Assembly (NCBI RefSeq): GCF_003346775.1
Contig: NZ_CP031219.1
Span: 1,736,001-1,800,000, forward strand
Source of the DNA: Malaciobacter mytili LMG 24559
Lineage (GTDB): Bacteria > Campylobacterota > Campylobacteria > Campylobacterales > Arcobacteraceae
DNA length: 64,000 nucleotides
Direction: 5' to 3'
The stretch's first letter is position 1, and each line of letters opens with the position of its first letter. Below, in pieces: positions 4,473-27,798 of this stretch. The translations under genes and the position numbers were made by a program. Below the pieces are notes generated by a model. That model saw nothing but the letters and a program-made list of their open reading frames with translations. It was not told the DNA's origin and did no database searches.

Positions 4473-5863
4473 TAAAACCACTCCGAAACTTTGCTCCAGA
4501 ATCTAGACATACCTTTACCTTTATCTTTTTTAGATAATGTTGGTAATTTTGTAGTATCTTCTTTTTCTAAAGTATTAGTTGTTTTCTCTTTTACTTTTTC
4601 ATCTTTAACAATAATCTTTTCTTCTTTTACTATAGATGTAACAATAGGTTCTTCTTTTTTAATAGCTTTTTTAATTAAATTCTTATTTGAATCTAACTCA
4701 TAAGTTCTATTATCATTTAAAGAATAAAATAGCAAACCAACAATAGTTGACATTGTTGGATCATCAAAATTCATATATCCATTTTTTATATTAATAGGAT
4801 TTGAAATTTTAACAGGAGTATTTTCAAAAACTTTCATTGCTAGTTCTTTAATACCTGATAGCTGACTCATTCCACCAGTTATTACAATTCCAGCACCAAT
4901 ATTCTCTTGTATTCCACTTTGTTTTAGCTTATTTCTAATAAGGACAAGTATCTCTTCAACTCTTGCATGAATAATTGTTTGAATATGCTCTAAAGAGACT
5001 TCCGAAGTATTTTGTTCATCACCAATTCTTGGAATTTTAACTTTTTTTATAGCTAAATCATCATTTTCATTTATTTTTAAAAGATTTCCATATTTTACTT
5101 TAAGCATCTCTGCAGCATTAGGAGGAGTATGTAACATTACAGATAAATCATTTGTAATGTGATTAGAACCAACAGGGATGAAACCATTAAAAATAATGGC
5201 ACTTCCCTTATAAGAGACAAACTCCGTAGTAGTTCCTCCTATATTTATAACTGTAGAACCAAATTTATTTTGTTGCTCATCAAGTAAAGAAATAGCACTT
5301 GCATATCCATCTAATACAAAATTAGTAAGTTCAATCCCAGCTGATTTTAAAGCAGATTTTATATTAGTTAAAGCAGTTCTTTTTGCAGTAACAATATAAA
5401 CTGATACTTCAAGTCTTGAACCATTCATATTTAAAGGGTTTTCAACATCTTTTGAATCATCTACTTTAAAGAAAATAGGAAGTACATGAACCACTTCATA
5501 TTCTGGAATAATAGTTGCATTATATAAAGCCATTTGCATAACTTGATTTATTTCAGTTTCAGTAATAAGTCCATTTGGAACATTAACTGAACCTAAACTT
5601 CTTAATCCTTTTGTATATGCTCCTGAGATTGATACAACTGAAGAATCAATTACTTCTGCTGTACTTCCTCTTGCTATATTAACTGCATTTTTAATAGCTT
5701 TTGAAGCCACTTCAATATTAGTAATTGACCCTTTATTTATACCTTCACTTTTACTTGTTCCTGTACCTAATATATTAATCTTACCATCTAAATTATTCTT
5801 AGCAATTACTGCAGTTATACTTGAAGAACCAATATCAATAGCTAAAAGAGTCTTACTGCTCAA
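4472..5863 (-). CDS. ftsA: Cell division protein FtsA
   Basis: 463 residues of the actin-like ATPase that tethers FtsZ to the membrane. The N-terminal phosphate-1 motif is IDIGSSSI. The SHS2 insertion and the phosphate-2 region (INIGGTTTEF) follow. The C-terminus is a long Lys/Glu-rich linker ending in a short amphipathic helix (about 450-463, SRFWSKVSEWF), the membrane anchor. The start is TTG with AAGGA 7 bases upstream. The gene lies 3 bases after ppiD and overlaps ftsZ by one base. Confidence 0.93.
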   Translation of the reverse strand: MSSKTLLAIDIGSSSITAVIAKNNLDGKINILGTGTSKSEGINKGSITNIEVASKAIKNAVNIARGSTAEVIDSSVVSISGAYTKGLRSLGSVNVPNGLITETEINQVMQMALYNATIIPEYEVVHVLPIFFKVDDSKDVENPLNMNGSRLEVSVYIVTAKRTALTNIKSALKSAGIELTNFVLDGYASAISLLDEQQNKFGSTVINIGGTTTEFVSYKGSAIIFNGFIPVGSNHITNDLSVMLHTPPNAAEMLKVKYGNLLKINENDDLAIKKVKIPRIGDEQNTSEVSLEHIQTIIHARVEEILVLIRNKLKQSGIQENIGAGIVITGGMSQLSGIKELAMKVFENTPVKISNPINIKNGYMNFDDPTMSTIVGLLFYSLNDNRTYELDSNKNLIKKAIKKEEPIVTSIVKEEKIIVKDEKVKEKTTNTLEKEDTTKLPTLSKKDKGKGMSRFWSKVSEWF

Positions 5864-5866
5864 TGA

Positions 5867-7327
5867 TTATTCCTTTGTACCTAATGAAGATTGAATTTCA
5901 TATCTATCTTCTAAACTTTTTATTAGATTTGTCATCAACTCTGTATTTTGTAGATTTTCAAGTGTTCTTCTTACACTTTCATCTCTTTTTGAATCATATG
6001 CTGAAAATCTTGAATCATTAATTTTATAAAGTACCACTTTATTTCCTAAATTAATCTCTCCAAGTTTATTATTTACACTAAATAATTGGTTAAAGAATTG
6101 TGCTGCTTCCATTTGGTTTAAACCTTCTATATTAGAAACAGAACTTCTGTTTACCCAACCTATATTCTTACCTTTAAAATTAGCTAACTCTTTCTTAGAT
6201 AGTGCTTTTAATTTTAAAGATTTTGCATTATTTATAAAATCTTTTGTTACATTTTCTTTTGCTTGTTCAAAACTTAACTCTTTTGGAGGAAGTTTCTTAT
6301 TAAGCTTAACAATAACATACTCATTTTTAATTAAAAACGGTTTAAATAAAGTTCCTTCTTTTGAACTAATTATATCATTATTATTTTCACCAAAAGATAA
6401 GTCAGTTTGGAAAATAATAGAGTTTTTAGAAAATTTCTTTTCATCTTTTTTATATTTAATATATTCTTTTAATGCAATTTTTTTTGTTTCTTGTAAATCT
6501 AAAGCTAATTTAACATCATCTAAAGCTTCTTCAAAAGTTTTGATTGTATCATCAGTATTTCTATAATCACTTTTAAATTTTTCATAATAATCTTTTAATT
6601 CTTCTTGTGAGTATTCACCTTTTTTTAAAGCAATAACTTCATAATCAATATCATAAGAGTTTTCTGACATATAATTCAATTTATTTTCTGACCAATATTT
6701 TTTAATTTCTTCTAAAGAGTTTGATACTTCAATATTATTAATATCTAAAACTTTTACATCAATATTATCTTCTAAAAATAGTAATTCATTTAAAGCTTTT
6801 ACTTCATTTTCATTTGCTTTTAATTGAAATAATTCTTCAACTTTTTGTAATAAAATATTTCTTTTTAAAGAGTTTTCAAATTCACTTACTGTTGTACCAT
6901 TTCTATTTAAAACTTTTATATAAGTATCTTTATCAAATTTTCCATCTTTAATAAAAGCTTCATATTTAACTAATTCTTTTGCAATATCTTCATTAGTTAC
7001 ACTTAAGCCTAATTCATCACCATAAGATAAAATAAGATTTTTTTCAATAGCCATTTTATAAGCTACATCTTTTAGTTTTAACTTATCAGCCATTTCTTGA
7101 TTAAACTCTTTTCCAAAGATTTGTGCGTATTGTTCATAAAGAGTTGAATATTCTCTTTGATATTCATCAATTGTAATAGTTCTGTCTCCAACAACTGCTA
7201 CTGCTCCACCTGACTTACCAAAGTCATAGCTTCCCCAACCAACAAATCCTGCACCAACAAATGCTATTGTACTAATCCAAATAGTACTAACTAGCCATTT
7301 TTTGTGTCTTTGCATCCAAGTTAACAT
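5867..7327 (-). CDS. ppiD: PpiD-like periplasmic folding factor (SurA_N/peptidyl-prolyl isomerase family)
   Basis: 486 residues. A short cytoplasmic start (MLTWMQRHKKW) precedes one membrane anchor (about 11-32), so most of the protein is periplasmic. The N-terminal part resembles the SurA/PpiD chaperone domain. A central parvulin-like region contains a SFEQAKENV stretch typical of these proteins, but I did not see a clear catalytic parvulin signature, so it may be a chaperone only. A gene of this type directly upstream of ftsA is a known arrangement in Campylobacter. It heads the division operon here. Confidence 0.8.
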   Translation of the reverse strand: MLTWMQRHKKWLVSTIWISTIAFVGAGFVGWGSYDFGKSGGAVAVVGDRTITIDEYQREYSTLYEQYAQIFGKEFNQEMADKLKLKDVAYKMAIEKNLILSYGDELGLSVTNEDIAKELVKYEAFIKDGKFDKDTYIKVLNRNGTTVSEFENSLKRNILLQKVEELFQLKANENEVKALNELLFLEDNIDVKVLDINNIEVSNSLEEIKKYWSENKLNYMSENSYDIDYEVIALKKGEYSQEELKDYYEKFKSDYRNTDDTIKTFEEALDDVKLALDLQETKKIALKEYIKYKKDEKKFSKNSIIFQTDLSFGENNNDIISSKEGTLFKPFLIKNEYVIVKLNKKLPPKELSFEQAKENVTKDFINNAKSLKLKALSKKELANFKGKNIGWVNRSSVSNIEGLNQMEAAQFFNQLFSVNNKLGEINLGNKVVLYKINDSRFSAYDSKRDESVRRTLENLQNTELMTNLIKSLEDRYEIQSSLGTKE

Positions 7328-26280: not shown

Positions 26281-26304
26281 GCTCTAGCTTGCTAAATCTA
26301 GAGC
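26281..26304 (-). terminator. Hairpin at the end of the recombinase gene
   Basis: GCTCTAG (26281-26287) and CTAGAGC (26298-26304) form a 7-bp stem with a 10-base loop, extended by TAAT/ATTA across a bulge. The recombinase stop codon is inside the stem. The minus strand continues with an AATTTT stretch. Confidence 0.55.
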
Positions 26305-26925
26305 ATTAGGCAAATTTTGTCTAATATTCCTTTTTTTAACATAATTATTAAGTCCTATATGATTATTATAACCAAGTAATTTTGCTATTTTTCTAACTGA
26401 TAAACCAACAGATAATAGCTCTTCAATTTTCTCTCTTTGATTATCAAATTTAGATTTTTGAATTGTACCTTTTGGTTTTCCTAAACTTGCACCTTCTAAT
26501 TTTTTTGCAGTTAAAGCCTCTTTTGTTCGAATACTCATTAAATCTTTTTCAAGTTTTAAAGTCATAGAAATTACACCTAAAATCATTTGAGTTAGCATAT
26601 CATTATCATCTATTAAATCAAGATTTTGACTAACAACAATTATTCTAATTTTATTACTAAGTAAAAACTTAACTATCTCTAAAATCGTCTCAATTGTTCT
26701 TCCAAAAACTGTTAAATCTGAAACTAATAATGTTGATTTATTTTGACAGTTTTTTAAAAAATCCAATATATTTTTTTCATCATTTGGAGTATTTATTTCT
26801 ATTTCAATTGATTGGTATATTTTAATATTTTGTCTTTTGATATATTCATTAATCACTTCAACTTGATGAGTAGTATATTCCTCATAATTCCTATTTATTC
26901 GAATAAAACTAAAAATTTTAGACAT
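26284..26925 (-). CDS. Serine-recombinase (resolvase/invertase) homologue lacking catalytic residues
   Basis: 213 residues from the ATG at 26925 (AAAGGA SD); an upstream start would add a 46-residue hydrophobic extension not seen in the family. The fold matches Hin/resolvase: N-terminal catalytic domain (about 1-140), helix E (about 110-145), linker LGKPKG, and a C-terminal helix-turn-helix (about 180-210). But the catalytic Ser of the R-x-S motif is Asn (IRIN), the paired Arg of the LxRLGRS box is Val (LTVFGRT), and the ElER motif reads KLEKD. It is probably not a recombinase and may act as a DNA-binding regulator. It stands alone, with no mobile element around it. Confidence 0.8.
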   Translation of the reverse strand: MSKIFSFIRINRNYEEYTTHQVEVINEYIKRQNIKIYQSIEIEINTPNDEKNILDFLKNCQNKSTLLVSDLTVFGRTIETILEIVKFLLSNKIRIIVVSQNLDLIDDNDMLTQMILGVISMTLKLEKDLMSIRTKEALTAKKLEGASLGKPKGTIQKSKFDNQREKIEELLSVGLSVRKIAKLLGYNNHIGLNNYVKKRNIRQNLPNALDLAS

Positions 26926-27243
26926 TAAAAATCCTTTAACAATAAGTAGTATTATAACTAAATAGTTTAGACATCTTGTTATAATTATATTATTTAATAT
27001 TATACGAAATGTTAATATGTTTTTTATAAATAATAGCTTAATTTTTATTTTCAGTATTACCATTTTTTCAATCTTTTGATTTTTTTGTTATACAACTATT
27101 GCTTATACATTTTGAAAAGTTTGAAAAAGGAAAGCCTTATTCCTCTATTTAAGAAAATTATTTTTTCATTTTTTGATTTGCTCTAAAGTATTTTTTAGCT
27201 ATTATCTATATTTAAAATTTACTAATCTAAAAAGGATTTTGTA
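26926..27243. other. 318-base intergenic region between the recombinase and ubiX
   Basis: The left part is the recombinase promoter region with an 8-bp inverted repeat (26951-26985). The rest, 26986-27243, is AT-rich and non-coding in my reading; a run of codons on the minus strand up to 27063 is hydrophobic and not convincing. The ubiX side ends in an AAGGA SD. I see no tRNA, riboswitch or conserved RNA in it. Confidence 0.5.
26951..26985. promoter_or_regulatory. Inverted repeat in the recombinase promoter region
   Basis: ATTATAAC (26951-26958) and GTTATAAT (26978-26985) are perfect reverse complements, 19 bases apart, and centre-to-centre 27 bases. Each arm contains a TATAAT-like -10 on one strand (26951-26956 on minus, 26980-26985 on plus). 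It could be a regulator-binding site or a pair of back-to-back promoters; chance is possible in AT-rich DNA. Confidence 0.35.
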
Positions 27244-27798
27244 TTGAAATTAATTGTTGCAATTACTGGAGCAAGTGGAGCAAGTTTAGCTTTGAAATTT
27301 ATAAATAAACTTCCAAGTGAAATTGAACTTTTTCTAGTTGCTTCACAAAGTGCAAAAACTGCTTTAAAATTAGAAGAAAATATCTCTTTAAATAAATATT
27401 TTGAAGATAAAAAAAATATAAAAATATTTAAAGATAATGATATTGCAGCTTCTATTGCTTCTGGTTCTTTTGGAGTTGATAAAATGATAATACTCCCTTG
27501 TTCAATGAATACCTTAGCAAAATGCTCAGTTGGAATATCTGATTCATTAATCACTAGAGCTTTTACAGTTATGCTTAAACAAAAAAAAGATGTAATTTTA
27601 GCCCCAAGAGAGATGCCATACAATACTATCAATTTAGAAAATATGTATAAATTATCTCAACTTGGAGTAATAATTGCACCTCCTATTTTAGGTTATTATT
27701 CAAATCAACAATCATTAGAAGAGATGGAAAACTTTCTAATAGGTAAATGGTTTGATTTATTAGAAATTAAAAATAATTTATATAAAAGATGGGAATAG
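27244..27798 (+). CDS. ubiX: UbiX, flavin prenyltransferase
   Basis: 184 residues. The N-terminal ITGASGASLALK binds FMN, and the C-terminal part with REMPYNTINLENM and ILGYYSNQQS matches the UbiX/Pad1 family. It makes the prenylated flavin cofactor used by UbiD-type decarboxylases. The start is TTG with AAGGA 7 bases upstream. It leads the ubiX-coaD-tmk-hisS-speA-cysE run, an order shared with Campylobacter. Confidence 0.94.
   Translation: MKLIVAITGASGASLALKFINKLPSEIELFLVASQSAKTALKLEENISLNKYFEDKKNIKIFKDNDIAASIASGSFGVDKMIILPCSMNTLAKCSVGISDSLITRAFTVMLKQKKDVILAPREMPYNTINLENMYKLSQLGVIIAPPILGYYSNQQSLEEMENFLIGKWFDLLEIKNNLYKRWE

Follow-up and report, generated by a model that had tools for sequence, protein, structure and literature searches.

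SRX, a 213-residue protein encoded on the minus strand of the window (the whole stretch of Malaciobacter mytili DNA analysed, 64,000 nucleotides), is probably a domesticated TnpR-type resolvase, a dead catalyst that keeps a res-like operator in front of its own gene and would bind this three-site array to repress srx. Judged from sequence, it most likely serves in gene regulation, with its own gene as a target at the least. The ORF begins with the ATG at 26925 and its stop codon ends at 26284. The gene and its parts are as follows:

26284 to 26925, minus strand: the SRX gene, identified by its ORF, a Pfam Resolvase match, conserved dead-site residues, and model and fold matches
26491 to 26925, minus strand: former catalytic domain and helix E (residues 1–145), with the fold kept and the equivalents of Ser10, Arg45, Arg68 and Arg125 lost
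26320 to 26490, minus strand: linker and helix-turn-helix DNA-binding domain (residues 146–202), nearly invariant in the family and 55–73% identical to that of Tn3-type TnpR
26932 to 26937, minus strand: Shine-Dalgarno sequence AAAGGA, conserved in the upstream alignment of orthologues

An earlier note, made from the DNA letters, had described the product as a recombinase homologue over its full length, and this is borne out. Pfam Resolvase matches residues 18–146 (E 3e-14), and the AlphaFold model (mean pLDDT 85, pTM 0.58) superposes on the Tn3, gamma-delta and Sin resolvases from end to end, with the Tn3 resolvase bound to site III as the top structural match (5cy1, E 9.6e-8). SRX displays the resolvase fold, the helix E and the C-terminal helix-turn-helix that characterize small serine recombinases. 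The best NCBIfam model, that of the Mpi invertase (NF009949), also spans the full length (E 2.7e-24), with a score of 86 bits that does not reach the curated cut-off of 272 bits. The good Shine-Dalgarno sequence that had been claimed is present as AAAGGA; the equally claimed good terminator did not hold up, as a consensus scan gave no match and the stem found by eye has no T-run. At the C-terminus, 44 of 62 orthologues terminate in (I/L)AS (window 26284–26310), an ending that might serve as a functional tail or stem from a DNA-level constraint at the gene end.

The active site was examined by aligning 62 distinct orthologues, drawn from related genomes that are not independent of each other, and setting each position against intact homologues. 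The nucleophile Ser10 is replaced by N11, an Asn in all 62 proteins, and the Arg of the ER motif (Arg125) by K127, a Lys in all 62, both as read from the single sequence. The claim that the Arg of the L-x-R-L-G-R box had become Val applies to the first Arg (Arg68, here V73; Val in 60/62) and not to the second (Arg71), retained as R76 next to G75. The Arg45 position is K51, mostly Lys in the family with an Arg in only 7 of the 62, and the SS/ST motif of intact recombinases is lost as well. The full catalytic set (Ser10, Arg45, Arg68, Arg71 and Arg125) is therefore broken, with R9 (Arg8) and R76 (Arg71) kept; E126, the Glu124 equivalent, is retained in 60 of 62 orthologues and Y17 is invariant. 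No other invariant Ser lies near the nucleophile position across the 62 proteins, and none of them is a same-locus relative with an intact Ser, the finding that would have spoken against the earlier description. SRX has the complete architecture of a small serine recombinase and a dead active site. The replacements are constant over 62 orthologues and are no chance or local defect.

The gene is maintained by purifying selection. dN/dS lies at ~0.01–0.15 for most close pairs and at 0–0.07 in the binding domain, where residues 148–199 are almost invariant across orthologues; the check proposed earlier has thus been run, and the statement that the gene is not decaying stands. Matches were found in 99 of 104 Arcobacteraceae genomes, one of them just a recombinase-like match at 33%, and SRX itself is carried by ~98 of the 104, in single copy: it is a single-copy core gene of the Arcobacteraceae. 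Four of the ~98 genomes, in genus g6, hold a diverged form (41–43% identity); in this small-genome group (L101, L159, L160) no upstream array is recognisable. The genes downstream of SRX vary, and the ubiX-coaD-tmk-hisS cluster is divergent from it in nearly all loci:

27244 to 27798, plus strand: ubiX, the divergent neighbour of SRX, named from its sequence and operon context and conserved in nearly all Arcobacteraceae

This is the position that tnpA holds in a Tn3-type transposon; no linked tnpA lies beside SRX, the divergent neighbour being ubiX in nearly all loci. In one locus (L066), the SRX gene has moved away from ubiX. A typical Arcobacteraceae locus also turns up in two records whose titles read Helicobacter pylori PMSS1 (MAG) and Desulfosporosinus (MAG) (L058 and L063); their bins look misassigned or contaminated.

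Upstream of SRX, the conserved DNA resolves into three sites:

27000 to 27014, minus strand: candidate site A, TAACATTTCGTATAA (family consensus TAWCATTTTGTATAA), at about −87
26971 to 26979, minus strand: core of candidate site B, ACAAGATGT (family consensus TTAAACATTATGTTTAA), at about −53
26939 to 26947, minus strand: core of candidate site C, ACTTATTGT (family consensus TATACTTAATGTAAAAGGA), at about −22, abutting the Shine-Dalgarno sequence
26928 to 27016, minus strand: the whole SRX promoter array, recovered by model R1 with 43.2 bits

Sites A, B and C are common to the upstream regions of ~60 orthologues, at spacings of 31–34 bp (A to B) and 29–32 bp (B to C), or about three helical turns. 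Site A occurs in 57 of 62 upstream regions, whereas none of 50 shuffled sets contains it. The half-sites are inverted in two pairs: one joins the right end of A and the left end of B over ~31 bp, bounded on the outside by TGT...ACA, and the other joins the right end of B and the left end of C over ~28 bp. Resolvase sites carry their recognition elements at the outer ends, around an AT-rich middle, and the half-sites in front of SRX are arranged in this way. An inverted repeat at 26951–26985, proposed in the earlier note as the site to which the protein might bind, falls within this region and is just a part of the conserved array (~26939–27014); it was dropped as the sole site since its spacing is not conserved across species.

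The array is confined to one place. Model R1, built from Arcobacteraceae only, scores 40–51 bits at the srx promoter of each of six genus genomes and at most 17 bits at the next best position, with no second comparable array outside that promoter. Paired half-sites elsewhere are rarer than in the reversed control (0–2 versus 3–6 per genome). The exact site A recurs once outside the srx promoter; it was considered as a further target and, lying inside a coding gene, was taken as chance. By comparison between genomes, SRX has a conserved candidate operator at its own promoter, as expected for an autoregulator. Regulation of ubiX may still occur but is not favoured: next to ubiX, the intergenic region carries a separate conserved promoter-like block and shows no array.

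Several loci depart from the common pattern. In L066, a TTAACATTATGTATA site followed by TATAC still precedes SRX, weakly scored by R1 (8.6 bits). The distant members L083 and L084 keep site A and have lost B and C; an additional TGTATAA lies upstream of their site A, which suggests that the array has shifted rather than vanished, as far as sequence can tell. Genus-specific extra TGTATAA half-sites form a direct repeat (AATGTATAA...TTGTATAA) in the interval between array and ubiX, at window 27040–27200 upstream of ubiX and in the genus g1 loci L003, L005 and L006. A direct repeat TTAARN6TTAAK is present at about −118 to −103 in 17 of 62 loci; we take its resemblance to an HsrA/CosR-type box as that of a candidate. 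With 17/62 loci it was rejected as a general feature of the promoter and kept as a lead.

The origin of SRX is best seen in its DNA-binding half. Plasmid records contain recombinases that share 37–42% identity with SRX from end to end; four of these are TnpRs encoded divergently from a Tn3-family tnpA, in Legionella fallonii, Ca. Megaera, Moellerella and Persicobacter (L165–L168), and a fifth intact relative is a recombinase on a Cardinium plasmid (L169). All five retain the Ser, the ELSRLGR-type box and ELERD. The closest intact kin of SRX are Tn3-family TnpR resolvases rather than Hin, which the earlier note had named beside resolvase. The N-terminal domains of the five are ~30% identical to that of SRX, no closer than those of other recombinases. 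The binding domain of SRX, by comparison, is 55–73% identical to that of Tn3-type TnpR, versus 43–53% for other intact recombinases and 35–47% for a second dead lineage, linked to ccoG and termed type 2. In the trees, grouping SRX with the TnpRs or with the ccoG-linked lineage is equally acceptable (p-AU 0.48; support 72/83); because the protein trees do not choose, the descent from TnpR rests on the binding domain together with the half-sites.

These half-sites recur in the DNA of the relatives. TGTATA/TATACA is found 10 times in the five TnpR res regions, where 2.2 copies would be expected and none of 2000 dinucleotide shuffles reached that number, and the Legionella res region has the arrangement TGTATA-AACGGACGTT-TATACA. 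When R1 was run on 54 kb, its three best matches fell in the upstream regions of the Cardinium and Moellerella genes (E 1.6e-4, 0.008 and 0.012); it recovered no res region of Legionella, Megaera or Persicobacter, and TGTATA is absent from that of Persicobacter. SRX hence combines a TnpR-like binding domain with the half-sites upstream, as a Tn3-type TnpR does with its res. Most of the five res regions contain AACGnnCGTT, the crossover core of res site I, which none of the 62 SRX upstream regions has. A search of Arcobacteraceae genomes gave no cognate intact TnpR with more than ~37% identity. We conclude that a TnpR's DNA specificity and a res-like region appear to survive in SRX, and that its nucleophile and the crossover core are gone.

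The events leading to SRX can be outlined as follows. An ancestor of the Arcobacteraceae would have retained the resolvase gene from a Tn3-type transposon, or from something closely related, along with the res-like sequence preceding it. Catalysis would then have been lost through the changes Ser to Asn, Arg68 to Val and Arg125 to Lys, and the AACGnnCGTT core would have vanished from the upstream DNA. What remained would be the minor-groove linker, the helix-turn-helix and the resolvase fold with its dimerisation and helix E. Resolvases are known to act as repressors of their own genes when bound to res. By analogy, SRX would bind A, B and C as dimers, on TGTATAA/TTWAACA half-sites set in inverted repeats of ~31 bp and ~28 bp, and the bound dimers would cover the srx promoter and the ribosome-binding site, repressing srx as TnpR does on res; the TnpR of Tn3 autoregulates both tnpR and tnpA in this way (PMC7157771). 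We infer the dimer and loop geometry, the Tn3 descent, and any further target genes or signal of SRX. Beyond its own promoter, SRX could realistically have either a narrow regulon or single, isolated sites, as no second array turned up in the six genomes.

Other readings of the same data were weighed. Sites A and C contain, respectively, TGTATAA(T), an extended −10-like element, and TATACT; −10-like hexamers overlap the array, and part of its conservation may be that of the promoter. It could then be that the array is a plain core promoter or the site of another regulator, such as an HsrA/CosR-like one that may recognise the TTAARN6TTAAK repeat upstream in 17/62 loci, and that SRX has some other DNA-related or structural role. 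We regard this as unlikely: a promoter by itself leaves unexplained the three phased near-palindromes and their uniqueness in each genome, and the same half-site stands in the res regions of those TnpRs that share the SRX binding domain. The suggestion that the recombinase fold has been reused in a DNA-binding protein is upheld for a regulator, the most likely role given purifying selection and a conserved array, and given up for a nucleoid factor. A nucleoid-associated or global DNA-bending protein with many degenerate sites would suit the strongly conserved binding domain, the AT-rich half-site and the core-gene status; the scan for arrays and paired half-sites returned one array per genome across six genomes, a depletion of paired half-sites and a single stray site A in a coding gene. 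The uniqueness of the array argues against such a factor and for local autoregulation, and we rejected the former as very improbable.

Residual recombination, through another nucleophile or a mixed oligomer with an intact recombinase, would draw on the retained R9, R76 and E126, the invariant Y17 and a full-length helix E of the tetramer-forming kind. Several catalytic positions are lost together, however, and the array has no crossover core; furthermore, no other Resolvase-domain gene was found in the 3.04-Mb M. mytili genome, which leaves no intact partner there, so that an active SRX is extremely unlikely. Finally, the binding domain and half-site shared with Tn3-type elements could allow SRX to act in trans as a shield, occupying the res of incoming elements with TGTATA half-sites and repressing or blocking them. 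This would be surprising, given that Arcobacteraceae genomes yielded no cognate intact TnpR above the identity quoted and that the chromosomal array alone suffices to account for the conserved specificity. The preferred reading thus remains that of an autoregulator derived from a TnpR-type resolvase.

A comparable loss has occurred in the type 2 lineage, found in other families of the order. Its ~220-residue proteins are 25–32% identical to SRX and are encoded directly upstream of ccoG (for example L085:4422-5090, with ccoG at 5116-6483), which was identified by TIGR02745 in three loci and elsewhere taken from a neighbouring ORF of suitable length on the same strand. The Ser and the box Arg are lost and helix E is shortened, with the binding domain and two invariant Cys kept. 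About 100 of 397 sampled genomes give a strong match (>170 bits); in Arcobacteraceae the type 2 model matches only SRX and recombinases. Nearly all of the 16 upstream regions compared (L085–L100) contain the inverted repeat TGACGAWAAA...TTGACTTTTTACGTCA, ~39 bp in span and overlapping the −35 box. A strict version of this operator pattern, in fact too strict, matched in 2 of 7 genomes, at a single place upstream of ccoG on one or both strands. We lean slightly towards the view that dead small serine recombinases serve as dedicated regulators in two long-lived lineages, SRX with a res-like operator and the ccoG-linked proteins with TGACG over −35; by way of their two Cys, the latter may couple the assembly of cbb3 oxidase to a signal from redox state or copper. 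The ccoG-linked lineage is a candidate regulator of cbb3-oxidase assembly in this order.

In annotation, genes of the SRX type go under ‘recombinase family protein’ and are tallied with the mobile elements, which would be misleading here. In the open-access literature, we found no description of either lineage and no serine resolvase without catalysis retained as a core-genome regulator; a term search of a 2022 review of recruited mobile elements (PMC8987985) likewise brought up no such case. SRX and its array provide a ready test of whether looping or cooperative regulation can be achieved by a recombinase fold alone.

Among known systems, SRX is most like the TnpRs of Tn3-family transposons and the Cardinium recombinase, with which it shares the full-length architecture, the binding domain, the upstream TGTATA and a divergent neighbour; autoregulation is expected for SRX and the Tn3-family TnpRs alike. 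The TnpRs keep the Ser, both box Arg, the ER motif and mostly AACGnnCGTT, whereas SRX is a chromosomal core gene without an intact catalytic set, crossover core or tnpA. The Mpi master DNA invertase, despite being the best NCBIfam match over the length of SRX, differs in that SRX stays under its cut-off and has lost the catalytic residues. The ccoG-linked lineage resembles SRX in being catalytically dead, with a conserved binding domain, an inverted-repeat operator before its own gene and one copy per genome; it is set apart by the shortened helix E, the TGACG half-site, the 39-bp span over −35, the operon with ccoG, the two invariant Cys and its occurrence in other families. A transposon protein that lost catalysis and turned regulator is also the principle behind TldR. 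These transcription factors, derived from dead TnpB nucleases (named in PMC13418256), share that principle with SRX and, unlike it, have an unrelated fold and are RNA-guided.
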